The translations under genes were made by a program, and so were the position numbers. Positions 30,491 through 43,516 of a stretch of 64,000 bases of DNA are shown piece by piece (the first letter of the stretch is position 1; each line of letters starts with the position of its first letter). The DNA comes from Nitrococcus mobilis. Its GTDB lineage: Bacteria > Pseudomonadota > Gammaproteobacteria > Nitrococcales > Nitrococcaceae. Location: positions 62,001 through 126,000 of the forward strand of contig JAGFJL010000068.1 of assembly GCA_024102725.1 (NCBI GenBank), in the 5' to 3' direction. The notes under the pieces were generated by a model that was not told the DNA's origin, did not search any database, and saw nothing but the letters and a program-made list of their open reading frames with translations.

Positions 30491-30567
30491 CGGGGTGTAG
30501 CTCAGCTTGGTAGAGCACTGTCTTCGGGAGGCAGGAGTCGCTGGTTCAAATCCAGTCACCCCGACCA
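30491..30567 (+). tRNA. tRNA-Pro (anticodon CGG), integration target
   Basis: The 77-nt cloverleaf has CCA encoded. Acceptor CGGGGTG pairs with CACCCCG, the D arm is GCTC...GAGC, the anticodon loop TTCGGGA gives CGG, and the T arm is GCTGG TTCAAAT CCAGT. Its 3' half is repeated at 42162 and 43469, which marks it as the attachment gene of the downstream mobile DNA. The intact tRNA stays functional after integration. Confidence 0.95.
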
Positions 30568-30573
30568 TAAAAA
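30523..30573 (+). repeat. attachment site, left (attL, tRNA-Pro 3' half)
   Basis: The 51 bases from TTCGGGAGGC in the anticodon loop to CCATAAAAA are identical at 42162-42212. Such tRNA 3'-end identity blocks are typical attB/attP cores of tyrosine recombinases. Confidence 0.9.
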
Positions 30574-30614: not shown

Positions 30615-30634
30615 GGGGGTGCAATAGGGGTGCA
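30615..30634 (+). repeat. 20-bp end repeat, left copy
   Basis: GGGGGTGCAATAGGGGTGCA is identical at 42011-42030 near the other end. It contains GGGGTGCA twice, ten bases apart. It is a candidate arm-type integrase site. Confidence 0.6.
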
Positions 30635-30707: not shown

Positions 30708-30791
30708 TATACCCCCCTGTGCAACAGTGCAACCGTGCAACAGCCAATAATGACGCGGGTTTCAGCGATGCATGGGGTTGCGCGGTTGCAG
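30708..30791 (+). repeat. iteron module A
   Basis: TATACCCCCC is followed by three abutting 8-mers TGCAACAG, TGCAACCG, TGCAACAG (30720-30743), then GCGGGTTTC (30755-30763), then two inverted 8-mers GGTTGCGC, GGTTGCAG (30776-30791). The same order occurs at 37181 and, inverted, at 40111-40196. Confidence 0.75.
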
Positions 30792-30922
30792 TGGCGCGGA
30801 GTCAGTAGGAAGGCAGCGGCTATCAGGCGGGATAACAGCGGCGGGAAGGTGTAACCACGTCACAACGGCATCAGTTGTGCATCCTAGAACGCTTCTTGCA
30901 AGGTTGCATAGAGCATTCCAGC

Positions 30923-31087
30923 ATGCAAAGTCATGCCAACTACCGTTTATCGGAAAGTAGTGGAACACCGCGCGGCAATATTCGTGACAGTCACGTTTGC
31001 GAGCGCTGCCGATTGAGGGCGGAAGAGCGTAAACATGTTTACGGTTTGCTAGAAGTCATTGCCGACCGGCGCTACGGCCATTGGTAA
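30923..31087 (+). CDS. possible small protein with a CxxC pair
   Basis: A 54-codon plus-strand ORF ends RCRLRAEERKHVYGLL... and holds a CERC pair. It stops 15 bases before an intrinsic terminator on the same strand, which suggests that this strand is transcribed. The ribosome binding site is weak, the sequence overlaps a 16-bp palindrome (31028-31043) and the first direct repeat, and I recognise no family. It may instead be part of a non-coding control region. Confidence 0.3.
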   Translation: MQSHANYRLSESSGTPRGNIRDSHVCERCRLRAEERKHVYGLLEVIADRRYGHW

Positions 31088-31239
31088 GATGCACGAGTAG
31101 TCGGGACGGTGCCGTCCCTTTTACTCTCCCGAAGTAATCCCTGGTCGGCAGCACGGCCATTGGTAAGACGATGGCAAAGCGTGCATATATGCACGATCCG
31201 CGAAGTAATCCCTGGCCGGCAGCACGGACAATGCAATAG
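31051..31239. repeat. three imperfect ~38-bp direct repeats at the left end of the element
   Basis: Copies begin at 31051, 31130 and 31201. They share GAAGTNATNCC, GGCAGCACGGCCATTGG-like and TAAGA blocks. Copies 2 and 3 are nearly identical over the first 30 bases. Spacings are 79 and 71 bases. A palindrome GTGCATATATGCAC (31181-31194) lies between copies 2 and 3. Confidence 0.7.
31103..31122 (+). terminator. intrinsic terminator, plus strand
   Basis: GGGACG and CGTCCC pair around GTGC and are followed by TTTT. It lies just after the small plus-strand ORF. Confidence 0.6.
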
Positions 31240-31369
31240 CCCCGCTCACACCCTGCACAGTGCATAGCTTTCGAGGCCGATATGCGAGAGGTGCCGATAA
31301 CACCCTCATACAGGCACGCAAGCGATTGATTGGTGGTGCACGCAGCGCCGTGGCACTGGAGTGCTCGAA

Positions 31370-31558
31370 TCACAGCCGCAAACCGGCATGCTTCTCCGTG
31401 ACCTTCAGCAACTCATCCACTGCATCGCGACGCTTGTTCGGGTCACGGCTGCCGGCCCGTATGACCTCGCCCAGCGCACGCGCCAGCAGCAGCGCCCGGT
31501 CGGCCGGGTGGCTCAAGTCGGCGAGCTCGTCCAGAAAGGTACGTTCCGGCTGTGTCAT
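31370..31558 (-). CDS. small protein downstream of the tape-measure gene
   Basis: This 62-residue charged helical protein reads MTQPERTFLDELADLSHPAD... Its start overlaps the end of the tape-measure gene (ATGA, 31555-31558), so translation is coupled. It is the last gene of the element's operon. Phage tail genes often follow the tape measure, but this is too short to assign. Confidence 0.55.
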   Translation of the reverse strand: MTQPERTFLDELADLSHPADRALLLARALGEVIRAGSRDPNKRRDAVDELLKVTEKHAGLRL

Positions 31559-33519
31559 CCGCTCGTCACCACGATGCGGCCGCCGTCAGCCATGTTGTCG
31601 TTGATCGACTCCAAAAGATTTCTAACGGACTTACGGTCGAAACTGTCGCCCCGCAGGCTTATGTTCGTGACCGGCTGCGGCGAAGATTGGCCTGCATCAC
31701 CGCCGACTGGCGTGACTGGCGTTGCTGGTGTGCTTCCTGCCAGTGATGGCGCTGCACCGCCACCGCCCCCGAATGACTGTGCGCGAATAGCGTTTACTTG
31801 CGCAAAACCCGCCGCAGCGTGCGCCGCCGCCATGATTCCGGCCAGTGGCCAGGCATACGTCGCCAAGGTCTTCGTAATGCCCTGCTTAGTGTTGATGATG
31901 GCATTGGCGATTGCGGCCGCCTGGTTGATGCGGAAAAGCACCTTGTTCTGCGTTGCCACGGTGTCAGTCATGGACTGCAATTCACCGGCTACGGTCTTCG
32001 ACTGCTCGGCAAAACTCATGGCAGTGAAGCGCTCCATGGCAGACATGCCACGCCGACGCAGGTCTACTAGCTTCTGCATGTGAGCCGCCTCGGCCTGTTG
32101 CTGAAGCTCACGGAACTCGGCCTCGGTCTCTATCTCGCCTTCCTTGAATCCGCGCTTGATGTCGGCCATGACCTGCAAGTGCTCACGCTGCAATTCCTGC
32201 TCGGTGACAAACCGATTGCGGATGGTCTCCAGTCGACGTTGCCAGTCCTCTTCCTGCTGCTGAGTGTCGCCGCCTGCGGTGAGATCAACATGCGCCGGCG
32301 CATTACGGACCTTCACGACCTCGGCAGCCGCCTGCTGCGCCTTCTCCTGTACTTCGCGGACCCACTGCTCCAGCCCAATCGTAGGCAGGCCACGGCCGGT
32401 GAGCTCCACCAGTTCCGCCCGAGTCTTGCGTACGGCGTCGGTCGCGCCCTCGGTGATGCTGTCGAGCCGCTGTTGCAGCTCTGATCCCTGAAATGAGGTA
32501 ATCAACTCGATATCGATGCCTGGAATCGCGTTTAGGCCGCTAATAACCGCGTTCGTGCCGCTGCTGACGAAATCCAGAAAGCGCGCGACGCCGCGCGTCA
32601 GGTCACTAAGGATGAACCAGAACGCAGAGGCGAATCCCTGAGCCGCAAGCTTGGCGCCGGTGAAGGCGACCTGAAAACTGCCGAATATCATGTCCTCCAA
32701 CTTGAGGATGACTGACCCTATTTGAGCCAACTTGTCCCTAAACCCGCCGGTCTCGCGCGCCGCCTCAGTGAATTTGTTGGCAAGCGCCTCTACGACCGGG
32801 GCAACCTGGACCGCCACGCGCTGAACCACACCCTCAAGCGCATTACCCGCCGAAGCAAGAGCCCGCTGAGCCCGTACCGCCTGCTGCGTGTCAACTTTGC
32901 TCATGGCGAACCCGAACTGCTCTGCCTGATCGGCCGCCTTGCGGAATCCCTCAGCACCGCCGCTCAACGCTGGAATCATGTCGCGCAAGGCATCGCCGCC
33001 AATCATCGCGGCTGCGGCTGCTTTGGTGGACTCGTCCTCGACGCGGCTCATGGCGTCCAGAAACTGCACCCAGACTTTATTGACGTTCTGCGTGAGATCT
33101 ATCTGCCGGCCGCTTGCCTTCTCCAGCAACTTGAAGCCGTCTACGGCCTCGCCTGTGCCAGTCCGCGCCTCGCCTACCCGCTCCGAGAAGTCCGTCAGCG
33201 CATCCGCCGCACGCTCGCTCGAAATCCCGAACCGCCTGGCCTCGACTGTCGCCGCCTGGATGGTGCGAATCTGGATACCAGTGACCTTGTTGAGGCGATT
33301 GATGGCCTGGATGGCGTCCAACTGGCTCTTGACCAGGTGCGCGCCGATAGCCGCACCGGCGGCCGCAGCGGCGGCGCCTAGTGCCGCCAGACGGGACGCC
33401 GTGGCCGCCGCTCTAGCACCAATGCGCTTTAGGCTGCTAGTGGCACGACGCGCGCCGCGTTCTAGGCCGGCGGTATTCGCACCGATTCTTACAACGAGTG
33501 ATCCAACGGGAGCTGCCAT
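31555..33519 (-). CDS. phage tail tape-measure-like protein
   Basis: In tailed phages this protein sets tail length and helps genome entry. From ATG 33519 the protein has 654 residues. The start MAAPVGSLVVRIGANTAGLE with paired ATSSLKRIG repeats resembles tape-measure N-termini. An alanine-rich hydrophobic stretch lies near residues 42-65, a second hydrophobic region near 280-310, a long coiled coil near 425-510, and a glycine/alanine-rich C-terminal part follows. An ORF start 16 codons earlier lacks a ribosome binding site. No tail tube or chaperone gene accompanies it, which is odd. Confidence 0.75.
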   Translation of the reverse strand: MAAPVGSLVVRIGANTAGLERGARRATSSLKRIGARAAATASRLAALGAAAAAAGAAIGAHLVKSQLDAIQAINRLNKVTGIQIRTIQAATVEARRFGISSERAADALTDFSERVGEARTGTGEAVDGFKLLEKASGRQIDLTQNVNKVWVQFLDAMSRVEDESTKAAAAAMIGGDALRDMIPALSGGAEGFRKAADQAEQFGFAMSKVDTQQAVRAQRALASAGNALEGVVQRVAVQVAPVVEALANKFTEAARETGGFRDKLAQIGSVILKLEDMIFGSFQVAFTGAKLAAQGFASAFWFILSDLTRGVARFLDFVSSGTNAVISGLNAIPGIDIELITSFQGSELQQRLDSITEGATDAVRKTRAELVELTGRGLPTIGLEQWVREVQEKAQQAAAEVVKVRNAPAHVDLTAGGDTQQQEEDWQRRLETIRNRFVTEQELQREHLQVMADIKRGFKEGEIETEAEFRELQQQAEAAHMQKLVDLRRRGMSAMERFTAMSFAEQSKTVAGELQSMTDTVATQNKVLFRINQAAAIANAIINTKQGITKTLATYAWPLAGIMAAAHAAAGFAQVNAIRAQSFGGGGGAAPSLAGSTPATPVTPVGGDAGQSSPQPVTNISLRGDSFDRKSVRNLLESINDNMADGGRIVVTSG

Positions 33520-33657
33520 GTCCTTATCCCAAAAAAAGAGGGGCGGGGCCAAGCTACCAGTCCGCACGCCCCCAATAGTCTAAGGATGTCGCCGGTTTCG
33601 CGCTGGAGTGGACGCGGGCACCGGCAAACCCAGCTTTAAGGCAGCCAACCATTTCTG

Positions 33658-34851
33658 TTACGACAAGGCGACCTTGATTACTTTGGCCGCGTGGTCATCG
33701 CGGGTAATCCCGCCGACGCGCTTACGGATGTAAAATTTTGTTTGGCCTGGCTCGGTGATATTCGAGTCGACCGTGATCCGCAGGCCGAAGCTATCCGCAA
33801 TCGTGTAGCCGCGCCGGAAATTACCGAACGCTACCGGGTGCGCATTGGCGCCGATGTCGGGCATGTGCTCGGCGAGCTGCACACGATGGCCGCATAGCAT
33901 GCTTGGCTGGCCCTCGATGAGGCTGTCTTGCCAGATGTAGCGGCCGTCGGCGTCTTTGAACCGCCTAATCACGCCAGCCGTCGAGCTGTTCATCAACCAG
34001 ACCGCGCCCGAGCGGTAGCCGGCACGCAGGGCGTAGACGGTCTGCCACAGCACGTCAGCCGGGTAGTGCTCCGGGGAGCTGGTCGACAGCGTACCGAAGC
34101 CATCCGAGACGCCGGTCGGGATGTACTGGAGCACGCCGAACGATCTCGCGGGCGATCCGTCATCCGCCGTGCTCACCGGGGAAGCGTCCAGGAAGCCGGT
34201 CGGCTTTTTGGTGCCGTCGCCGCTGATGAAGGCCTGGGATTCGGCGATGGCCAGTTCCTCGGAACAGCGGTCCACCAGCCAACCCTGGACATCGAACATG
34301 ATGTCCGCCAATGCCTCTTCAGAGGCTTGCGGGCGGCTGTAGACAATCCCGAATGTCGGGCGCACCTCCGCAAGCTGCGGGGTATTGGTTTCGCTACGAG
34401 AGTCGCCCTCGCCAACCCAGCCGGAACTGGTGCCGCCGATATCAACGAGCTCTACGTAATCGCTGCTCGATACCTGCACCACGCGAGCAACCTGGCGGAT
34501 GGGCGACAAATCCCTCATACGCTGCAGGATTTGCCGAGATAGCTGTTCCGGTACGGCAAAGCCGCCGCCGGGGTCGCTGCCCTCGGTCACCGCCTTCTGC
34601 TGCACCTGCTCCAGATACCCGCGCGTATTCGGCGAGGTCGGGTTGCGCAGCCACGCATCGAAAGCCTTTAAGTGTTCCTGCTGCTCTGGCGTCACGCGCT
34701 GGCCGCTCGGTCCAGCCCGCATCGGCATGTCTCGGTCGCACTCCAACTTAGAGAGCCTTTCTTCAAGCTCAGATTTGTACGCTCTGTCGCGACGGGAAAA
34801 ATCATCCCATTCAGAGTCCAGCTTTTCGATTACTTCATTTACGTTAGGCAT
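33658..34851 (-). CDS. HK97-type major capsid protein
   Basis: This 397-residue shell protein of the HK97 gp5 family has an N-terminal coiled-coil delta-like region (residues 1-45), then VTEGSDPGGGFAVPEQLSRQIL, which usually marks the start of the mature domain near residue 85. FISGDGTKKPTGFLD near 210 and WLMNSSTAGVIRRFKDADGRYIWQ near 275 are typical P- and A-domain motifs. The delta-like region implies cleavage by a prohead protease, but no such gene is present. A helper phage would have to supply portal, protease and large terminase. Confidence 0.92.
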   Translation of the reverse strand: MPNVNEVIEKLDSEWDDFSRRDRAYKSELEERLSKLECDRDMPMRAGPSGQRVTPEQQEHLKAFDAWLRNPTSPNTRGYLEQVQQKAVTEGSDPGGGFAVPEQLSRQILQRMRDLSPIRQVARVVQVSSSDYVELVDIGGTSSGWVGEGDSRSETNTPQLAEVRPTFGIVYSRPQASEEALADIMFDVQGWLVDRCSEELAIAESQAFISGDGTKKPTGFLDASPVSTADDGSPARSFGVLQYIPTGVSDGFGTLSTSSPEHYPADVLWQTVYALRAGYRSGAVWLMNSSTAGVIRRFKDADGRYIWQDSLIEGQPSMLCGHRVQLAEHMPDIGANAHPVAFGNFRRGYTIADSFGLRITVDSNITEPGQTKFYIRKRVGGITRDDHAAKVIKVALS

Positions 34852-34995
34852 GGTAATACTCCGTGCAAATATCTGAGTTTCACGTTTCGATCACCGGCTT
34901 TGCACGGATTTAGCACAACGTCACGCAGGCTTGTAATCTCGGGTGAACTTGAAGCGTCGCGCAGCAAGCTCAAGCCAGTAATTCAAGTATATCAT

Positions 34996-35229
34996 TCAAT
35001 TAAGTGTTTTCGTACCTTCTGCGTCGATTCGGTCGGCAATTCGACGCAACCATTCCGCCGTTTCTGCACTGCCGCTCAATTGAACGCTTGCCTGCAATGC
35101 CGTCTCGAACAGCGCGTGTAAAATGGCCCGCTGCGAAACGCCGGCCTCGGTTAGTTTATTCGCCGCGCCAGAGAAAAGCCGTGCGCATTTCAAACCGTCG
35201 TGGTGTTCGTCTCGAATCTCGTCAGTCAT
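34996..35229 (-). CDS. small helical protein, paralogue of the next gene
   Basis: This 77-residue protein contains AILHALFETALQASVQLSG and AEWLRRIADRIDAE. The upstream gene product has a matching pattern (ALTINWLRGLADRLESE), so the two are tandem paralogues overlapping by eight bases. I recognise no family. It lies just before the capsid gene. Confidence 0.55.
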   Translation of the reverse strand: MTDEIRDEHHDGLKCARLFSGAANKLTEAGVSQRAILHALFETALQASVQLSGSAETAEWLRRIADRIDAEGTKTLN

Positions 35230-35446
35230 TTTGAATCTCCGATTCCAGTCTGTCAGCCAGTCCTCTCAACCAATTAATCGTCAGCGCCCTTCCGCTCGAT
35301 TCTAGAGCAACAACCAACATGGCCTGCGTTATCGAGCGGCCGATAATCTCCTGCGGAATTCTGCGCTCTAGCATGTCGTCAACCAGCTGCCCGAATTCGT
35401 ACGTGCAATCGAGCGCGAGTTGCTCGTCCTTATTCCGTTTGGTCAT
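35222..35446 (-). CDS. small helical protein, paralogue of the previous gene
   Basis: This 74-residue protein reads MTKRNKDEQLALDCTYEFGQLVDD... It shares the C-terminal W-L-R-G/R-L/I-A-D-R pattern with the product of 34996-35229. The start overlaps the end of the preceding gene by four bases (ATGA), so translation is coupled. The role is unknown. Confidence 0.55.
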   Translation of the reverse strand: MTKRNKDEQLALDCTYEFGQLVDDMLERRIPQEIIGRSITQAMLVVALESSGRALTINWLRGLADRLESEIQND

Positions 35447-35718
35447 TTCTCAACCTCCGGCACAACGCCGCTACGTTGGATTAGCTCGTCTCTGATTTCC
35501 TTGGCACGATGGCAGCCGCCGAGCTCTTTATCCGAGCAAGGCTCGCCGCCGTGCAGCCATAGGCTCCTGCACCATGCCGGACTGCATTCCCATGGTTTCA
35601 GCTTCAGCGCGCTGTGCACGCCATCTAGATCACCTTGGCGCCACATCTCCACCACGGCGGCGTCGAGTTGGATTCGCTGGTTCCTCGTCCGCTTTTCACG
35701 CTTTACTGGCATATTCAT
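35443..35718 (-). CDS. small protein with four cysteines
   Basis: From ATG 35718 this gives 91 residues, MNMPVKREKRTRNQRIQ..., with cysteines in WECSPAWC and EPCSDKELGGCHRAK that could bind a metal. An ATG two codons later is also possible and is better spaced from AAGGTGG. A longer reading from 35853 would overlap the neighbouring gene almost fully and is unlikely. It is part of the overlapping operon. The role is unknown. Confidence 0.5.
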   Translation of the reverse strand: MNMPVKREKRTRNQRIQLDAAVVEMWRQGDLDGVHSALKLKPWECSPAWCRSLWLHGGEPCSDKELGGCHRAKEIRDELIQRSGVVPEVEK

Positions 35719-35896
35719 TCCACCTTGGTAGTCCTGGCACTTCATCGCCGAAATATTTCCATCCGGTGTAATCGTGCCAATCATCTGAATCAAACTCGGG
35801 CACTTCGCCAGTTGCGAGTAATCGACGTGCCCATTCTGGGGTATCCATATCACGCCGCTGGCGGGTGCGTTTCGTCCTAGTCGTCGGCATTAGCAT
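35696..35896 (-). CDS. small hypothetical protein
   Basis: This 66-residue protein has a basic N-terminus (TTRTKRTRQRR) and an acidic aromatic C-terminal part (DSDDWHDYTGWKYFGDE). It overlaps the gene on each side by a few bases, as most genes in this operon do. An ATG at 35890 is an alternative start. I recognise no family. Confidence 0.5.
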   Translation of the reverse strand: MLMPTTRTKRTRQRRDMDTPEWARRLLATGEVPEFDSDDWHDYTGWKYFGDEVPGLPRWNEYASKA

Positions 35897-36243
35897 TTAA
35901 CTCCTATTCCGCCGCTAGGCCGGCCTGGCCGGTCCCTTAATGGCTCGAGGTCGAGATTCAATTGTTTCAGAGCGGCCAAAAAGCCGTTTCTAGCGTCTTT
36001 CTCAAGCGCACAGGCCGGGTGTACTTTCGTTTGGCCGTAACGGTCTGTAACGACCTCTCCTTGCGCCTCAATGGCATCTTGAGCCGCGCGCATTCGGTCC
36101 AAACACTCCGACGCCGTTGTCAGTAATGCGAGTCCCGCCGCGTCGTCGATTGCGTATTCAGAAACAACGTCTCGAAATAGCTTTCGGCCATCGGGTTTAA
36201 GGTGCTTTGGTGGTCGCTTCGGCTTCAACATAGTTTCAATCAC
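35890..36243 (-). CDS. phage terminase small subunit, P27 family
   Basis: TerS recognises the packaging site on phage DNA. The 117-residue protein matches the P27 family pattern: KPDGRKLFRDVVSEYAIDDAAGLALLTTASECLDRM, then HPACALEKDARNGFLAALKQLNLDLEPL. The start is GTG (36243) directly after the previous stop; ATG 36231 is an alternative. No large terminase gene follows. Satellites use their own TerS to redirect a helper's packaging motor, so this fits that lifestyle. Confidence 0.88.
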   Translation of the reverse strand: MIETMLKPKRPPKHLKPDGRKLFRDVVSEYAIDDAAGLALLTTASECLDRMRAAQDAIEAQGEVVTDRYGQTKVHPACALEKDARNGFLAALKQLNLDLEPLRDRPGRPSGGIGVKC

Positions 36244-36390
36244 TCAATTTCGACTTTTCGTGGCTGCCTCGCCGGTCCTAGGCTCTTTCCCGCTCAACTT
36301 TTGACGCCCCCGCCGGTCCGGTTTGTTGCGTGGCCGCTGCCGCCACTTGCGCATCAGTCTCCTGGCCCATCCACTACGGGTCTTTCTCAC
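36244..36390 (-). CDS. small basic protein
   Basis: The 48-codon GTG ORF codes for an extremely basic protein (WARRLMRKWRQRPRNKPDRRG). Its start overlaps the previous stop (GTGA), and its stop abuts the terminase start. The dense packing argues that it is translated. It may bind nucleic acid. Confidence 0.45.
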   Translation of the reverse strand: MRKTRSGWARRLMRKWRQRPRNKPDRRGRQKLSGKEPRTGEAATKSRN

Positions 36391-36545
36391 GCTGCTGCCT
36401 CCTGCTGCTCAATCTGCCTCACCGCCTCGGCTATCGCGTCCCACTCATCCTCGCTGTACAGGTCGAGCCAAGCGGGTAGCCGGCCATCGTGCGTGCGTGC
36501 GTGCTCCAGCACCTTGGCTGCTAGGTCGTGAGTGTCATCGGTCAT
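36387..36545 (-). CDS. small acidic protein
   Basis: The 52-codon ORF reads MTDDTHDLAAKVLEHARTH... and contains DLYSEDEWDAIAEAVRQIE. It overlaps the TubC-like gene by 11 bases and the next gene by four bases. The role is unknown. Confidence 0.5.
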   Translation of the reverse strand: MTDDTHDLAAKVLEHARTHDGRLPAWLDLYSEDEWDAIAEAVRQIEQQEAAA

Positions 36546-37071
36546 TGGGCACCCCCACTTGCACACCGAAGACCGTGCTGCCTACGGTGCGGGTCTTTGG
36601 CTTATCGCGGACAAGCTCGGTCGCATACGCCCGCACGGTCGAGGCTGGAATCAACCCATTTGCTATATCGTCGATATCATCCTGAGCACACCACGCGCGG
36701 AACTCATCAGCCGTAATCGGTAGGCCTGCAACGGCGTTGCGGATGACGATGCCCACGTCCTTGCGCCGGGTAGCGGGTATACGCCCACCGGGTACCGTGA
36801 GGGTTGCGGCCGGGGTAGTGGTGCGCGGGTGGCACGCCGAGCACAGCCACGGCCCGTCCCGCTCAGTCTGGTGGTACGCGCCGCTGCCGCAGTGGTGCGG
36901 GTCGGTAGGTTCGACAGGTACCAGCAGATGCAGCAGCTCATCCTTCTCCTGCCGCATCCGCTCCATTAACTCCTGAGTCATGACGTCCGCAGGCGCTCGA
37001 TATCGCACCTGGCCGTGCTCCGCCCATACCTCGACGCCACGCTCGCGAAGGGTGGATAGCAGCGTACTCAT
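36535..37071 (-). CDS. protein with TubC-like N-terminal docking domain
   Basis: From ATG 37071 the protein has 178 residues. Residues 1-50 (MSTLLSTLRERGVEVWAEHG, then RYRAPADVMTQELMERMRQEKDELLHLL) follow the TubC N-terminal docking pattern: helix, W-x-E beta hairpin, helix. This domain also occurs in some phage and plasmid primase-associated proteins. A CxxC pair (WLCSACH) near residue 80 and HHCGSGAYH before it suggest a small zinc site. The start overlaps the primase stop by four bases, so it may partner the primase. Confidence 0.6.
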   Translation of the reverse strand: MSTLLSTLRERGVEVWAEHGQVRYRAPADVMTQELMERMRQEKDELLHLLVPVEPTDPHHCGSGAYHQTERDGPWLCSACHPRTTTPAATLTVPGGRIPATRRKDVGIVIRNAVAGLPITADEFRAWCAQDDIDDIANGLIPASTVRAYATELVRDKPKTRTVGSTVFGVQVGVPNDR

Positions 37072-39326
37072 ATGCTGCCCTCCACGTAGTCGTCGGAGGT
37101 GTTGCACGGTTGCACGCCAGTTTTAGGGGATATAGACCCACTGTCGGAATCCACGCTGTCGTAGTCCGAAGCGGCTCCCCTATATACCCCCCACTGCACA
37201 GCATCAACCGTGCAACCGCTAGGCGTGGCGCGGGTTTCCGGGTTGCACAGTGTTGACGGTTGCGGGAGCACCTCTATGGTCTCGGGTAACGGCTCGCCGA
37301 TTACCCACCTACCGGGACGACCGCGCTTGTCCTCTTTGTTGCGGATGTACCCGCCATCGGCAGCGCGGCGTATCCTTCGGCTCGCAGCAGACTTGTCTAC
37401 GCCTAGCCGCTTCGCCACGTCGGTGACGGTTACGCCGCTCTCGTCGGCGAGCTCATCGACCGCGCTCACTGTTTCCCGCACTGTGTCCGATACAGTCGCG
37501 CCAATGCCTTCGGATACAACACCGGACACCAGCTCCCGCACGGCTACATAATCATCCATGGTGGCGATTATCCGGCCGCTCTTGTCCCTCTCGCGGCTGC
37601 ACTGGTGCAGGATGGCGTGCGCGCGGATAAGCGCGAGCACAGAAGCGAAATCCCGCCGAAGCCGTACAGCTAGCGGTGGGACGGCATCTGCCAGCGTACG
37701 AGAATAGGGAATCGTGACCTTGTGCTCGGCCACCTGCAGCCACGCCTGGAATTTGCGCCACGCCTGCAGATCCACGTCTCTCTCGGATTCATCAGCCATG
37801 GCAGCCAGGACGTTTCGCGTCTGCTCCGCGCCGTCATCCGTGTTAAGCGATAGGATGCGGGTCTCGTTTTCGGAGTGAACTCGGGTCTTAGTGGTCGTAA
37901 AGACTAGGTTGGTCGGTCCTTCCTTCGTGATGCGCTGCGCTGTGTACTGGCCGTCCTCGCCGCGTACAGTCACGTCGTACTCGATCCGGCCTTCTGAGAG
38001 CAACGAGCGCATGAAGTAACTGGCGAGATCGTCTTCATTGCCCTCGCGCAGTCCGGTGACTTCATAAATCACTATCGTGCGGTGACTGTATGAGTCTTCG
38101 CGGTAGATCAGCGCCCGCTCCGACATTCCGGTAAAGGTGACTACCGCCTCTTCCGGGAAGAAATCGAGCACGCGGCCGACAACCCAGCTCTTGCCGCTGG
38201 AGGAATGGCCTTTCACACCGATGGATACTGGCTTGTTCAGCAGCCGGCTGGTTACGGCCAGGTAGAGGAGTTGCGCGGTTGCATATTCGCCAATCAGCCC
38301 ATGCAACCGTACGTCCCGCCGGAAATCAGACAAAATATCCTGTGAATACGCCAACTTAGGCGCTAAAGACTGCGCCATTTCAGTCAGCGGTTGCACGGTT
38401 GCACGGTTGCCCGAGGGGGTGTATAGGCCCTCGAACTGCCGCATAACCTCGTCCAAACCGCGCACGCAGTGCACGTCGTTGAAGTCGCACTTACCGTTTT
38501 CGAGCTCCGGTACGGCCAGTTGCCCGCCAACGGCCTGCGCTGCTTCGGTAGCCTTTGCAACTCCAACATTCTCCGAACCGTCGTCGCGGATATCGTTATC
38601 CGCTGCAATCACCATCTGAATGTCCGGGTACTTCGAGCGCAGTGATTCGGCCACCTTCTTTAAGTTGCCGGCGTTGAATGCGACCGCTACAGCCGCTCCT
38701 GTGGCCTCGTGAATACTTGCGCCGGTAGCGAAGCCTTCGCAGACCACGATCAGATCGTCAGGACGGCCGATGGCGTAATACGTGCCGCATACACGGCCGC
38801 CAGGTAGGAAAAGCTTCTCGCCGGTCGGGTCGATTAACTGAAGGCTGCACAAGGTGCAGTCGGCACTCATAGGGATAATGAGTACGCCGTCCTCGTCAGT
38901 GCGGACCCCATGCGCGCTGATGCCTTTTGCGGTGAGATACGGGTTGTCTGACGGTGCCGGAGAAGCGGTGCGCCATATTTCGAGCGCACGCCGTGCGGCA
39001 TCTGCTTGACGCCTATCCCGTTCGGCTTTGCGCTGCCGCTGGATAGCTCGCCATTTCTCCCGCAGCTTCCTGGCGTCGGACTTGTCGAGCGTATCCGGCC
39101 GCACGGCAGCCCATTTCTGTGTCCAGCCGGTGCGCCAGCATCCGAATGCGCCGGCCGGCATTTCGCCGTCGTGCAGGACGTACCATCCGGCATCGTCACT
39201 GCCTTTACCATTAGTTGAGAATCGGTGCAGGTTGCCATCGGCGATAATGTGCTCCGGGACGGGAAACCCCGCCCCGGAGATCGCCTCAGCGAATGCCCCG
39301 ACTGAATCAGAAGCCGGGGATTTCAT
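37068..39326 (-). CDS. primase/helicase-like replication protein
   Basis: This 752-residue protein has a Toprim-type region with VVCEGFATGASIHEATGAA and MVIAADND near residues 200-245. A P-loop ATPase/helicase domain (GVKGHSSSGKSWVV) lies near residue 370. A C-terminal winged helix-turn-helix (VTVTDVAKRLGVDKSAASRR) is near 650, followed by a low-complexity tail. ATG 39326 has AAGGAG ten bases upstream; 39350 is an alternative. Toprim plus helicase in one chain is usual in satellites and plasmids that start their own replication. Iteron clusters lie inside this gene at 38388-38425 and near its 3' end. Confidence 0.82.
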   Translation of the reverse strand: MKSPASDSVGAFAEAISGAGFPVPEHIIADGNLHRFSTNGKGSDDAGWYVLHDGEMPAGAFGCWRTGWTQKWAAVRPDTLDKSDARKLREKWRAIQRQRKAERDRRQADAARRALEIWRTASPAPSDNPYLTAKGISAHGVRTDEDGVLIIPMSADCTLCSLQLIDPTGEKLFLPGGRVCGTYYAIGRPDDLIVVCEGFATGASIHEATGAAVAVAFNAGNLKKVAESLRSKYPDIQMVIAADNDIRDDGSENVGVAKATEAAQAVGGQLAVPELENGKCDFNDVHCVRGLDEVMRQFEGLYTPSGNRATVQPLTEMAQSLAPKLAYSQDILSDFRRDVRLHGLIGEYATAQLLYLAVTSRLLNKPVSIGVKGHSSSGKSWVVGRVLDFFPEEAVVTFTGMSERALIYREDSYSHRTIVIYEVTGLREGNEDDLASYFMRSLLSEGRIEYDVTVRGEDGQYTAQRITKEGPTNLVFTTTKTRVHSENETRILSLNTDDGAEQTRNVLAAMADESERDVDLQAWRKFQAWLQVAEHKVTIPYSRTLADAVPPLAVRLRRDFASVLALIRAHAILHQCSRERDKSGRIIATMDDYVAVRELVSGVVSEGIGATVSDTVRETVSAVDELADESGVTVTDVAKRLGVDKSAASRRIRRAADGGYIRNKEDKRGRPGRWVIGEPLPETIEVLPQPSTLCNPETRATPSGCTVDAVQWGVYRGAASDYDSVDSDSGSISPKTGVQPCNTSDDYVEGSI
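37100..37265. repeat. iteron modules B and E at the 3' end of the primase gene
   Basis: Module B (37181-37265) starts TATATACCCCCC. It continues with degenerate 8-mers ending ATCAACCG, TGCAACCG (37203-37218), then GCGGGTTTC (37230-37238), then GGTTGCAC and CGGTTGCG. A shorter module E (37100-37133) has TGTTGCA, CGGTTGCA and GGGGATATA. Both lie in the stretch coding for the low-complexity tail. Confidence 0.7.
38388..38425. repeat. iteron module C inside the primase gene
   Basis: CGGTTGCA, CGGTTGCA, CGGTTGCC abut in tandem (38388-38411) and are followed by GAGGGGGTGTATA. This is the inverted half of the composite module seen at 30708, 37181 and 40111. It codes for the linker between the Toprim and helicase parts. 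Confidence 0.7.
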
Positions 39327-39663
39327 CGTCAAATGGCTCCTTTGCTGCACGTAGCTTTATGCCGCCGATCCGCTTGCCGGCGTACCGAACGCTCGGGTCA
39401 ACGAATATTTCTACTCGTGCACCAGCAAAGTCGTCCGTATCATCGGAGCCGGTCAGCTCGGCAAGCTGCTCCAGCGCCGTCATGTTGAGCGGCCAACCCT
39501 TATCAATGCCTTTGAAGTAGATAACCGGCTTCAAATCGTCGCCGACCTCTTCTTCAACGATTCGCTCAACGACGGTCTGGCGCTCCTTCTCTGACATTGC
39601 CTCGACGTCGTCCTTGCGGAGCCACTTGGAATTGCGGTACTTTGCGATCTTCACTTCATTCAC
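39307..39663 (-). CDS. hypothetical protein upstream of the primase
   Basis: This 118-residue protein has a charged helical N-terminal half (WLRKDDVEAMSEKERQTVVE) and a C-terminal FAGARVEIFVDPSVRYAGKR followed by IGGIKLRAA and an acidic end PFDDEIPGF. Its stop overlaps the primase start by 20 bases. An acidic C-terminus next to a primase recalls single-strand binding proteins, but I cannot confirm an OB fold. Confidence 0.6.
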   Translation of the reverse strand: MNEVKIAKYRNSKWLRKDDVEAMSEKERQTVVERIVEEEVGDDLKPVIYFKGIDKGWPLNMTALEQLAELTGSDDTDDFAGARVEIFVDPSVRYAGKRIGGIKLRAAKEPFDDEIPGF

Positions 39664-39765
39664 CTTTCATTGCTTGATCGGCCGGGAACTGCCGGCCTCA
39701 GATCCCACGCTGGGATTCGTTCGCACCCGTCGCGGTAGCCGCCGTGGCGGGTGCCATACTTGCGG

Positions 39766-39993
39766 TTAAGTGCCCCCTGTAGCTCTCACGGTATTACGTT
39801 CGATCCACGCGACGATGTCGGACCGGCGATATCTAATCGCACGACCGATAGCCACGTATGGGAGGTCTCGTAAAGGATTGGAGGGGAGCCGGTGCAGGCG
39901 GGCCGCCTTGAGGGTGCCAGCGGAGACGCCTAAGGCATTAGCGGCCTCTCGCGTAGTCACCAGCTCAGGCTGCGGTATATTTCCGTCGGTCAT
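39766..39993 (-). CDS. small helix-turn-helix protein, AlpA/excisionase-like
   Basis: This 75-residue protein has one MerR/Xis-type winged HTH: LVTTREAANALGVSAGTLKAAR, then GRAIRYRRSDIVAWIERN. Such proteins act as AlpA-type activators of excision or as directionality factors in P4-like elements and satellites. It lies downstream of iteron module D and could bind there. The 100-base gap to the next gene (39664-39765) shows nothing I can name. Confidence 0.75.
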   Translation of the reverse strand: MTDGNIPQPELVTTREAANALGVSAGTLKAARLHRLPSNPLRDLPYVAIGRAIRYRRSDIVAWIERNTVRATGGT

Positions 39994-40110
39994 CGGTGGT
40001 AGCTCCCACGTATCTTCTATTCACGTAGGTCCACCTTATTAGGGAGGGTAGATTGCGTCTTTCCCCAAAGATTATTATTTTTCGAGAAGCGGTAAGTTCG
40101 TGTCTAGGTG

Positions 40111-40196
40111 TGCAACGGTGCAACCTGGTGCAACCCGGAAACCCGCGCCAGTGCTTGCGGTTGCACGGTTGCACTGTTGCGCGGGGGGGTATATAT
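40111..40196 (-). repeat. iteron module D upstream of the HTH gene
   Basis: On the plus strand: TGCAACGG, TGCAACCT and TGCAACCC (40111-40136), then GAAACCCGC (40138-40146), then CGGTTGCA, CGGTTGCA, CTGTTGCG (40158-40181), then GGGGGGGTATATA. Read on the minus strand it follows the same order as modules A and B. Confidence 0.75.
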
Positions 40197-40211
40197 GGGG
40201 CCGCTACATAT

Positions 40212-40745
40212 CTAATCTACATCGTCGGGATTCATAATGTGGGGTTCTAGCAGGGATTTAACCGCTATCGGAGGGTTGCTCATCCGCTCCTTGACACTGT
40301 AGTAATACTCGCTCGCAAGACGCTTTCCTATGTGGAATTCCTTGCCCACTTCATCGAAAAGATGCTCATCAATTGGCATGTTTCGGACTTGATGCCATTC
40401 GCCGTTATGCACCCGCCACTGTGGCTTTAAGTGAAGCTCCCTGATGCGGCCGTAAACGGCGAATTCAAGACGGCGCTTTTTGATATACGCCGCCTTGTGC
40501 TTTCCCTTCGGCCACTGAATACCAAACGCCTCCCCCAGATCATCTGCCGAGCGGCTGATGAATCGGTTCCATGATCTATGCAATTCGCGGTCGACCCATT
40601 CCGGCATCAGCACCCCCCATCTCGCGCAGAACATGAGAGCGTGCATAAGCGCGTCTGAATACCCGGCCTCAAACATCAGGCGGTATTCTTCTAGTTGCGC
40701 TTCCGCAACCTGCTCTGGAAGCTTCTTTTCTGTGTCCATGCTCAT
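40212..40745 (-). CDS. hypothetical protein downstream of the integrase
   Basis: This 177-residue, Trp- and Tyr-rich protein contains ARWGVLMPEWVDRELHRSWN and KRLASEYYYSVKERM. There is no membrane segment and no motif I recognise. Its start overlaps the integrase stop (40742-40745), so the two are coupled. It could be an element-specific regulator. Confidence 0.6.
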   Translation of the reverse strand: MSMDTEKKLPEQVAEAQLEEYRLMFEAGYSDALMHALMFCARWGVLMPEWVDRELHRSWNRFISRSADDLGEAFGIQWPKGKHKAAYIKKRRLEFAVYGRIRELHLKPQWRVHNGEWHQVRNMPIDEHLFDEVGKEFHIGKRLASEYYYSVKERMSNPPIAVKSLLEPHIMNPDDVD

Positions 40746-41983
40746 GCCACGCTCTCCTTGCGGCTCTCTTTCGCCGCCGTGAGACGAGCCACCGCTTCGG
40801 CTTTGTGCTCTGGCGCCAGATGGGCATAGCGCAGCGTCATCATTAAATCACCGTGCCCCAATAGCTCCCGCACGGTATTTAGGTCCACGCCTGCCATAAC
40901 TAGCTTGCTAGCGAAGTGGTGGCGCAGATCGTGGAAGCGGAATCCGGTAATTCCGGCATCCGAGAGCACGCCGCGCCAGGACTTGTTTATATTGTCGAGT
41001 CGCCCGCCGTCCCTACCTGGGAATACCAGTCCCTTGCTAGCCTCCGTCGTCTTCTGCCAGCCCTGCAGCACCGCCAGGGCTTCAGTGTTCAGCGGGATAT
41101 GCCGGGTTTGTCCGCTTTTGGCTCCATAACCGTGCACTGTGAGTATGGAGCGGATCAGGTCCACGTCAGACCACTTCAGGTTGAACAGCTCGCCACGGCG
41201 CAGCCCGGTGTTCATAGCGAGAAGCACCAACGGCCGCAGATGGTCCACGTATGGCACGGCGCGCAGATCGGGCATGATCGGGTAGCCGCGCAATAGCCGC
41301 CACTGGTTGGCGTTTGCCCGTTCGGCCCTGGCCTGCTCTTCGCGCGCAGCTAGCGCCGCACGCAGCCGGGTTTCCTCGTCGTCGCTCAGGTAGCGGACAA
41401 CGCCTCTGCGGTCGAGCTTGGCGGGTTTCACCTTGGCGATGGGGTTGGCGTCGATCACATTCCATTCGACTGCCCGATTTAACGCCGATTTCAGAGCCGT
41501 TACGTCACGGTTGACGGTAGAATGCGCCTTGCCGTCCTTCAGGCGCTTAGAACGCCACTTCTCAACGATCCAATGGGTAATCTCAGGCAGCCTCTTGCCG
41601 CCTATCTCGCTGTCAAAGCACGCCTGCAGGCGGGCCAGCGTGGCAGCGCCGTCCTTTCGGTGTGCTTTCGCCCACGGACCGTATATGTTTTTCAAGTAAT
41701 CCCGAAACGTGGCTGACTTCGCGCGCCGACTCTCTGCGCGTACGTCCTTACCTTTGGCTGCGTCGCCAAGGATTGCCTTTGCCTGCTCACGAGCCTCAGC
41801 AGGCTTCAAATCGGTGAGCCTGCCAAGCGTGTGCCACTTGCCGCGAGCGTAATTCACGCGCCAGCTATGCCGGCCGGATTTGCGCAGCCGAAGAACGAAC
41901 CCGATTAGCTTGGTATCGTAGATGTCCATATCCCGGCCTTCGGGCAGGTTCTTCAGCATGGTGTTGTTTAGTGCCGCCTTCAT
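40742..41983 (-). CDS. tyrosine recombinase / integrase
   Basis: This phage-type integrase should act on the tRNA-Pro attachment site. From ATG 41983 (AGGAAGC upstream) it has 413 residues. The N-terminal DUF4102-like arm-binding part contains IYDTKLIGFVLRLRKSGRHS. A SAM-like core-binding domain spans about residues 95-190. The catalytic domain shows Arg in NTGLRRGEL, HDLRHHFAS (H-x-x-R), LLGHGD and the nucleophile in LRYAHL. A longer reading to 42091 would cross the 20-bp end repeat and is unlikely. It lies next to the right attachment repeat. Confidence 0.95.
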   Translation of the reverse strand: MKAALNNTMLKNLPEGRDMDIYDTKLIGFVLRLRKSGRHSWRVNYARGKWHTLGRLTDLKPAEAREQAKAILGDAAKGKDVRAESRRAKSATFRDYLKNIYGPWAKAHRKDGAATLARLQACFDSEIGGKRLPEITHWIVEKWRSKRLKDGKAHSTVNRDVTALKSALNRAVEWNVIDANPIAKVKPAKLDRRGVVRYLSDDEETRLRAALAAREEQARAERANANQWRLLRGYPIMPDLRAVPYVDHLRPLVLLAMNTGLRRGELFNLKWSDVDLIRSILTVHGYGAKSGQTRHIPLNTEALAVLQGWQKTTEASKGLVFPGRDGGRLDNINKSWRGVLSDAGITGFRFHDLRHHFASKLVMAGVDLNTVRELLGHGDLMMTLRYAHLAPEHKAEAVARLTAAKESRKESVA

Positions 41984-42010
41984 TGCTGTGCTTCCTACAG
42001 CTGCGATTCT

Positions 42011-42030
42011 GGGGGTGCAATAGGGGTGCA
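42011..42030 (+). repeat. 20-bp end repeat, right copy
   Basis: This is identical to 30615-30634 (GGGGGTGCAATAGGGGTGCA) and lies 28 bases upstream of the integrase start. Confidence 0.6.
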
Positions 42031-42161
42031 AATTGGTTGCCTCGCGGTATACCTGAATGCACGACCATTGCCTTAATTGGCACTCTAACACCTTAAATAT
42101 ACTGGGTATAGAGGTGAATCAAAAAAGATGGGAGTATATGGCGGGATAGTTATTGAACGCA

Positions 42162-42212
42162 TTCGGGAGGCAGGAGTCGCTGGTTCAAATCCAGTCACCC
42201 CGACCATAAAAA
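42162..42212 (+). repeat. attachment site, middle (attR of the large element)
   Basis: The 51 bases are identical to 30523-30573. It is only the 3' half of a tRNA gene, lacks the 5' half and is therefore not a tRNA. Confidence 0.9.
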
Positions 42213-42217
42213 CAAAA

Positions 42218-42245
42218 GGGTTAGGTCTATGGCCTGGCCCTTTTT
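42218..42245 (+). terminator. intrinsic terminator after the second tRNA 3' copy
   Basis: GGGTTAGG and CCTGGCCC pair with two G-U pairs, followed by TTTTT. It resembles the third copy more than the first. Confidence 0.7.
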
Positions 42246-42701
42246 CAATGCCTGGAAGTGACCAGGAAGTGCAGGCGGCCCACCTCGTACGACATCGACC
42301 GAGAGCGCATGAGCCCAGCAGGGAATAACCCGCAAATTGTGGCCGTCACATATCCCAGCCGTTCAACCGCCCCAGCTGCCGCCAGGCGGCCACCTTGAGC
42401 GCATTCCATTACACACAAGTCTGTTCCAGTCGATTCAGGCCGCGCCGATGTCATCCAAGTGATTGAAAATACTGGTCCCATCTGCCCAGTCGACATTTAG
42501 TGGAAACAGTCCATAAGCTGTTGTTTCAATTGCATGTTCTGGACTTATGTATAAGGAGATGCCTTGAGCGCGTCGCTGTATTCAGGCGATTGGAGCCGCT
42601 AGGCAGATATGCTCCAATCAATCTTCAGGCGCCGTTTCCATGACTGTGGTCCGGTCGCAGAGCTCGCTACGCATTATCCGCTTTACCTTTGTAAGCTCCA
42701 C

Positions 42702-42731
42702 ACGTATATTGTATATACAAAAGATATACGT
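42702..42731 (+). promoter_or_regulatory. nested palindromes at the toxin-antitoxin promoter
   Basis: ACGTATAT (42702-42709) and ATATACGT (42724-42731) form outer arms around the perfect palindrome TTGTATATACAA (42709-42720). The site ends 14 bases before the toxin start and overlaps TATA-like boxes. It is a likely autoregulatory operator, as is usual for such modules. Confidence 0.6.
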
Positions 42732-42745
42732 GAGGTGTGGGGCTT

Positions 42746-43051
42746 ATGAAGCTAAACATCTCGACTTCAGTCGGGCACAAACTAACTAGCAGACATGGTG
42801 TAAGCGAAGAGGACATCAGGCAATGCTTTGCTAATCGGAATAGTCGGATGCTCAAAGACATTAGGGCGAAACATGATACCCAGCCACCAACAATGTGGTT
42901 CATATCGGAGACGGATTTCGGCAGGAAGCTAAAAGTTGTTTTTATTCAAGAACGTGACGGTAGCATTACAATCAAGACAGCATATGAGCCAAATAGCGAC
43001 GAAATAAGAATATACGATAAGTATGGTAGAGATGGCTCATTGGAAAAGTGA
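42746..43051 (+). CDS. BrnT-like toxin
   Basis: From ATG 42746 (TGAGGTG eight bases upstream) this gives 101 residues. HGVSEEDIRQCFANRN, TMWFISETDFGRKLKVVFI and IKTAYEPNSDEIRIY give a RelE/BrnT-like fold pattern. A related family is often annotated as ADP-ribosyl-(dinitrogen reductase) hydrolase beside CopG-type antitoxins. GTG 42737 is an alternative start. Base composition is more AT-rich than in neighbouring genes, which points to recent transfer. A ribonuclease role is inferred from the family. Confidence 0.7.
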   Translation: MKLNISTSVGHKLTSRHGVSEEDIRQCFANRNSRMLKDIRAKHDTQPPTMWFISETDFGRKLKVVFIQERDGSITIKTAYEPNSDEIRIYDKYGRDGSLEK

Positions 43052-43091
43052 TAACCCAGTTAGCGCGACGGCTAACGTTGGAGCACATGCC

Positions 43092-43427
43092 ATGGGCAAG
43101 AAAGAGCATATCGAGAGCACAACGGAGGCTTGGGAGGAGAGGCAGCTTGGAGCTGATGAGGAGTTCGTTGAAGTTGCCGAGGAGTTTGATGAGAAGGCTG
43201 CAGATGAGGCGCTAGAGCTCAAGATGATCTCGATCCGCTTACAAGAGTCTCTTATAGAGGATCTCAAGGCAATTGCGCAAATTAACGGAATTGGCTACCA
43301 GCCACTGATCCGACAAATTCTAAACAGGTTTGCGGACGCTGAAAAAAAGAAACTTCTCCGGGAGAAACAGAATGAACTAGAGAATAGAGACCCGGATCCA
43401 AAAAAAGGCCTACGGATAACAAGTTAA
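43092..43427 (+). CDS. CopG/BrnA-like antitoxin
   Basis: From ATG 43092 (GGAG eight bases upstream) the protein has 111 residues. An acidic N-terminal half (residues 1-45) would wrap the toxin. A ribbon-helix-helix domain (MISIRLQESLIEDLKAIAQI, then GYQPLIRQILNRF) binds DNA. An earlier start at 43023 overlaps the toxin gene. The toxin-first order is as in BrnTA. An inverted repeat GTTAGC/GCTAAC lies between the two genes (43059-43076). Confidence 0.75.
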   Translation: MGKKEHIESTTEAWEERQLGADEEFVEVAEEFDEKAADEALELKMISIRLQESLIEDLKAIAQINGIGYQPLIRQILNRFADAEKKKLLREKQNELENRDPDPKKGLRITS

Positions 43428-43468
43428 GATAACGGAAAATATCAGGGAGTGATTTTATACCCGCAAAG

Positions 43469-43516
43469 GGCAGGAGTCGCTGGTTCAAATCCAGTCACCC
43501 CGACCATAAAAACAAA
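43469..43516 (+). repeat. third copy of the tRNA-Pro 3' half
   Basis: GGCAGGAGTCGCTGGTTCAA and onward to CCATAAAAACAAA matches the other copies; identity begins slightly later than in the first two. It is the likely outer right boundary of the mobile-DNA locus. It is followed by its own terminator. Confidence 0.85.

Follow-up and report, generated by a model that had tools for sequence, protein, structure and literature searches.

The window analysed here, a 64-kb stretch of Nitrococcus mobilis DNA, contains an 11.5-kb virus-like element inserted in a tRNA-Pro(cgg) gene, flanked by direct repeats of that gene's 3' end, which were delimited with ARAGORN and repeat analysis (Table 1). A third copy of the att-like repeat, at 43462, keeps the core only. 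The main genes of the element all lie on the minus strand and encode, in order, a tyrosine integrase, a 177-aa protein, an AlpA-type regulator, a 118-aa protein, a primase-helicase, a TubC_N-like protein, a TerS-like protein, an HK97-type major capsid protein and a tape-measure protein; the 177-aa ORF has no assigned function. Neither TerL nor portal was recognised among the element genes scanned with Pfam and PHROG, and capsid and tape-measure genes (31555-34851) without these two make an odd mix for a satellite. Classical PICIs have no tail or structural genes of their own, while cf-PICIs carry a full capsid-packaging set. The window element may be degraded or may interfere with capsids.

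Three further features lie near the borders of the element. Identical 20-nt repeats, GGGGGTGCAATAGGGGTGCA, stand close to both att ends (30615-30634 and 42011-42030) and are likely to be integrase arm sites. The noncoding end of the element holds three 33-nt direct repeats (at 31051, 31130 and 31201, spanning 31051-31233) that are unrelated to the iterons described below. Directly after the element, a second unit of 1.3 kb (42207-43505) has tRNA-Pro 3'-end repeats at its borders and encodes a pair of a BrnT-like toxin and a CopG-type antitoxin (42737-43051, 43023-43427); it forms a very small cassette placed in tandem at the attachment site that the element uses.

Table 1. Features of the element and its repeat modules (positions in the window)
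Feature	Position	Strand	Basis or composition
Left att-like repeat (tRNA-Pro 3' end; tRNA at 30491-30567)	30523-30573	+	ARAGORN, direct repeat
Module A, full	30708-30790	+	TATACCCCCC; 3 iterons TGCAACNG at 30720-30743; box GACGCGGGTTTC at 30752-30763; inverted iterons at 30774-30790
TubC_N-like N-terminal domain and conserved C-terminal segment; gene overlaps primase end	36535-37107	-	Pfam TubC_N
Toprim primase-helicase, 760 aa; C-terminal winged helix MarR_2/HTH_24 (residues 631-676)	37068-39350	-	Pfam; PHROG DNA primase phrog_2249
Modules B and C, candidate replication origin at 3' end of primase-helicase gene	37102-37262		Position and geometry as in arrays of relatives
Module B, partial	37102-37136	-	2 iterons, spacer, TATATCCCC about 10 bp away; no box
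Module C, full, degenerate iterons; in primase C-terminal tail	37181-37262	+	TATATACCCCCC; iterons; box GGCGCGGGTTTC at 37227-37238; inverted iterons
Module D, partial; inside primase gene	38388-38424	-	TATACACCCCC; 3 iterons
AlpA/HTH_17 excisionase-type regulator	39766-39993	-	Pfam, PHROG
Module E, full	40111-40200	-	TATATACCCCCCC; 3 iterons; box GGCGCGGGTTTC at 40138-40149; 3 inverted iterons
Tyrosine integrase	40742-42091	-	Pfam, PHROG
Right att-like repeat	42162-42212	+	Direct repeat of tRNA-Pro 3' end

Repeat modules of the element

The 8-mer TGCAACNG is found 28 times in the whole window, whereas shuffled sequences contain 10.4 copies on average and 18 at most. Within the element there are 15 copies where 2.0 are expected (maximum of 8 over 2000 Markov shuffles), and tandem GCAACnnnGCAAC occurs 10 times against an expectation of 0.05. 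Of the 10 sites that match TGCAACNGTGCAACNG with at most one mismatch anywhere in the 3.25-Mb genome, 8 fall in the element. The iteron clusters reported in an earlier sequence-only reading of this DNA are thus real, given that the counts exceed those of shuffles in both the window and the element. In the primase gene alone, six copies are present against a mean of 0.55, and none of 20,000 synonymous-codon shuffles reached six (maximum five). Therefore, the DNA itself, and not the protein alone, is under constraint, as that reading had suspected.

Five modules sharing one order had been described, and this order is fully kept in three of them. Modules A, C and E consist of TATA(TA)CCCCCC, abutting iterons, the box GNCGCGGGTTTC and inverted iterons; they can be aligned as one composite over about 80-90 bp, are about 71-79% alike over 73-90 bp, and all carry the GCGGGTTTC box. 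Modules B and D, in contrast, are partial and boxless, and module D has neither a box nor an inverted set beside its TATA/C-tract and iterons; two further single iteron sites lie near it at 38276 and 38302. A and E form a 90-nt inverted repeat (79%) with its arms 9.3 kb apart, and their inverted iterons give them the potential to form hairpins (z = -2.5 for A and -3.5 for E). In module C we find no hairpin beyond chance. Module E has no DNA match among plasmid or phage records.

The placement of the modules differs in one respect from the earlier description, which had put two of them in the primase gene: three overlap this ORF, B and C in the part encoding the C-terminal tail and D mid-gene. 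As described, one module precedes the helix-turn-helix gene (E, at a distance of 118 bp from the AlpA-type gene) and one lies at the far end, near the tRNA (A, about 135 bp from the att repeat). In an excised circle, module A would sit about 250 bp upstream of int. B and C lie in the terminal 195 bp of the primase ORF on opposite strands, B as the left and C as the right inner half of the candidate origin, with iteron sets that point outward and are about 83 bp apart. In both, CTATA(TA) adjoins a C- or G-tract on the side that faces the centre. The centre between them has a GC content of 57%, the 40th percentile of the 77-bp windows of the element, with short TATATA elements only. A and E, rather than B-C, contain the best iterons.

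The primase-helicase itself is clearly assigned at its Toprim domain (Toprim_3, E = 5e-14) and its winged helix (MarR_2, E = 1e-8). Its helicase has no confident family: no Pfam match to D5/SF3 helicases (D5_N, DUF5906, Pox_D5) was obtained, DUF3631 was not detected, and alignment to other families with hhalign gave weak, generic ATPase similarity. The structure of the winged helix, predicted without an alignment, has low to modest confidence, and the domain has no sequence match to the solved P4 alpha domain.

Iteron arrays beside primase genes of relatives

Related primases were sought in genomes from the same class (274), order (54) and phylum (398), and 57 loci with long primase ORFs were compared. 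An array was counted de novo as at least 7 copies of any one hexamer in 260 bp, at most 600 bp from the primase stop codon. Using this criterion, arrays are found at the primase 3' end in 17/57 relatives versus 4/442 control windows taken elsewhere in these loci; over the full distribution, p = 3.6e-9. The control windows differ in coding content, and 17/57 is not a count of independent events, since some of the loci are interrelated or fragments. The other 40 of the 57 are below the threshold, some of them being fragments or primases of conjugative plasmids. The arrays of relatives are inverted with a period of 8-12 bp, and in nearly all loci they are the sole array of that iteron. One recurring layout has inner inverted sets (period 8-9), a centre of 80-100 bp, and, about 42 bp away, outer sets (period 10-12).

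Each array has an iteron of its own. For instance, we find CGGAACAAC in L145, GGTGACA in L148, TCCTACCG in L149, TCCACC in L167, TGACAC in L168, CGGGACAAC in L176 and L188, ATGGAACAG in L189 and L190, ATGTGACAG in L193, TGCTACAAC in L142 and GCTACA in L201. Arrays of TGCAAC, the iteron core of the window, are absent beside the 57 Toprim-primase relatives. Taken alone, this absence would look like a refutation, but the arrays there have other iterons. The expectation that the motif accompanies the same primase holds for the architecture, which is kept with element-specific iterons, but not for the iteron sequence. Across 39 iterons, aligned with no prior orientation, a degenerate core GKRRC(A), or G(K)(R)(R)C(A), reaches 4.6 bits versus 2.2-2.6 bits in column-shuffled sets.

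Between them, the array-bearing primases carry six or more different helicase modules: D5/DUF5906, DUF927, VapE, AAA_25, DUF3631 and DUF3987. D5-type helicase domains are present, for example, in relatives L168 and L171. Searches by family place arrays at 8 of 9 distinct DUF3631 places, mostly with an 8-bp period, in most full-length DUF927 loci, and in about half of the full-length DUF3987 loci. No clear array was seen in the loci with homologs of the helicase/winged-helix part of the window protein itself (L130-L138, L183, L184), nor on pM02_c11740, a 4.2-kb single-gene plasmid with a related primase. Several array-bearing primase-helicases, including that of the window (37068-37250), have a C-terminal tail with a short acidic-aromatic end peptide, such as DYEEF, DHEDF, DDFA, SDFA or DFE, with DDYVEGSI in the window (also L174, L181, L176, L043, L116 and L086). 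Some of these peptides directly follow an iteron-encoded linker, and they resemble the protein-docking tip of SSB.

Similar arrays are found in phages. In Pseudomonas phage phiAH14b, the DUF927 helicase gene is followed, at 54-274 bp, by a GGGAACAGG array, and Idiomarinaceae phage 1N2-2 has a GGTACA array 10-211 bp after its primase-helicase gene, together with CCTATATAGG. Among viral contigs, phages with TGCAAC iterons of 8-bp period (L043/L090, L086, L104, L116, L041/L046; L112/L120/L123; L119) carry symmetric arrays at the ends of replicative helicase genes of other families; no match for the primase or for the full composite pattern was obtained in these contigs. Inverted TGCAAC arrays of 8-bp period were also observed in several Bacteroidales genomes (L077, L081, L094). 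In a search of 84,980 genomes, the triple-iteron pattern also matched apparently unrelated 8-bp repeats in other phyla.

The box of the window is shared with elements whose iterons differ from its own. Three DUF3631 elements (L252, L256 and L257) have an invariant box, GNCGCGGGTTTCNG, that is the same as that of A, C and E (exact GGCGCGGGTTTC). Their iterons have the same 8-bp period and wholly different letters (ATCCGT, CGTCAC and GGTCAC versus TGCAAC). The same box with different iterons indicates that one part of the composite is constant and another variable. Across the DUF3631 loci, the box has 0, 0, 0, 2, 2, 3, 4 and 5 mismatches; in other array loci the best match has at least 3, except for L142 with one. 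As a bare 13-mer the box is unspecific, with about 70 matches in 185 genomes, most of the inspected ones without arrays. A second recurrent companion is the gene directly after the array, which in at least 12 loci encodes a TubC_N-like domain and a C-terminal segment of about 50 residues. TubC_N docking-like domains are known from peptide synthetases, and here one stands in a replication context.

A candidate replication origin and its alternatives

The gene content and the repeats of the element resemble those of known satellites. In PICIs, the origin lies immediately 3' of pri-rep and has two iteron sets, and pri together with ori replicates a plasmid (PMC6092414). The window element has the same arrangement of iterons in two sets immediately 3' of the primase/initiator gene, as in SaPI and EcCICFT073 (PMC6092414), and the same att repeats, int, excisionase-type regulator, pri-rep and terS. 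It differs from PICIs in that the centre between B and C is not AT-rich, in having three full and two partial modules over 9.5 kb with the constant box GGCGCGGGTTTC, and in encoding a major capsid and a tape-measure protein with no recognised TerL or portal. Satellite phage P4 has the alpha primase-helicase, short iterons and two cis regions, ori and crr. The window element is like P4 in that its primase-helicase combines a Toprim domain with a winged helix at the C-terminus, that its iterons are short and that it has more than one cis region. Its helicase domain has no D5/Pox_D5 match, and its iteron, integrase and satellite cargo are different. The closest likeness in composition is to the DUF3631 elements L252, L256 and L257, which share the 8-bp period, the exact box and, in several cases, the TubC_N-like gene after the array, and differ by a single module, other iterons and the DUF3631 helicase. 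Iteron plasmids have direct repeats of about 20 bp with DnaA boxes. Plasmids of the RepA/pi type (PMC4980987) share short direct repeats at the origin with the window; here, in contrast, the initiator candidate is a primase-helicase and the 8-bp repeats are inverted in two sets.

Based on these data, we propose, with a probability of about two in three, that a satellite-type (PICI/P4-like) replicon uses the modules as iterons to which its initiator binds, with B-C as the origin and A, D and E as extra copies. Because B-C fits the PICI origin in position and layout, we assign the origin to B-C and regard the primase-helicase as the likely initiator. The suggestion of the sequence-only reading that these are replication-origin iterons is well supported by the 3'-end arrays of relatives and by the PICI origins (PMC6092414), and the repeats of the window are probably a known origin type in an unusually reiterated form. 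In this mechanism, the primase-helicase would bind the 8-bp iterons through its C-terminal winged helix, the DNA between the B and C sets would be opened, and the protein would load as both helicase and primase. Further elements of the origin would be the invariant box and the TATA/C-tract. A lies near int in the circle and E upstream of alpA, so both are possible auxiliary replication sites or operators; A, D and E could act as auxiliary replication sites like P4 crr, as operators for the initiator's own operon, or as both.

By analogy with P4 alpha, which is stated to bind origin repeats through a winged helix (PMC4234260), the primase winged helix is the most likely binder of the iterons. 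However, the iteron core is common to helicases of different folds, and the binder could therefore be another protein. The TubC_N-like protein, as a frequent neighbour of arrays, could be such an alternative. The AlpA-type helix-turn-helix protein, also put forward from the sequence, finds no support in relatives, whose arrays do not adjoin alpA.

An alternative that we consider unlikely is that the modules are operators and not origins, with a regulator (AlpA-type, TubC_N-like or the primase) controlling the int and alpA-primase operons. The positions of E, and of A in a circle, upstream of alpA and int would suit this role, as would the TubC_N-like gene that so often follows the array. Against it, three modules (B, C and D) lie within the primase gene, two of these at its 3' end, the arrays of relatives lie at that end and not beside alpA, and E has no strong promoter match. 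Packaging sites (pac/cos-like) for a small terminase are very improbable: one phage group has TGCAAC arrays between helicase and terminase-type genes and the window element encodes a TerS-like protein, but in most array-bearing relatives examined a TubC_N-like or other gene, and no terminase, follows the array, whose constant neighbour is the primase-helicase, and the modules of the window are at five places. We give slightly less credence still to a mobile repeat (REP/MITE-like or a hairpin) that spread in the element with no replication function. The similarity of A, C and E and the hairpins of A and E are as expected of such a repeat, but it is nearly confined to this element within the genome, unrelated elements have the composite, with a different iteron, at the 3' end of their primase gene, and no terminal features or target duplications were seen. 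Lastly, integrase/excisionase arm sites are the least credible reading: A is close to an att repeat, but C, D and E are 2-9 kb from either one, and GGGGGTGCAATAGGGGTGCA (with its GGGGTGCAA repeats), beside both att ends (30615, 42011), is a better candidate.

Returning to the origin interpretation, we tentatively extend it to a broader possibility, which we would not favour at present, that a single evolving origin code runs across primase-helicase elements. Under this proposal, the common geometry and GKRRC(A) would be retained while the letters are element-specific and the helicases are swapped, and the code would set replicon identity and compatibility. In the window element, the module might have been copied to control and att-proximal sites, which would place replication, transcription and excision under a single initiator.

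These findings give a directly testable candidate origin for an uncharacterised satellite. They also indicate that iteron origins linked to a primase, of the kind seen in PICIs and P4, occur with six or more helicase families and in phages, with a separate iteron in each case; therefore, origins and satellite compatibility groups may be predictable from sequence alone. The box common to elements with differing iterons splits the origin into a specificity part and a common part, and the wider pattern is one of constant geometry and box with a variable iteron.
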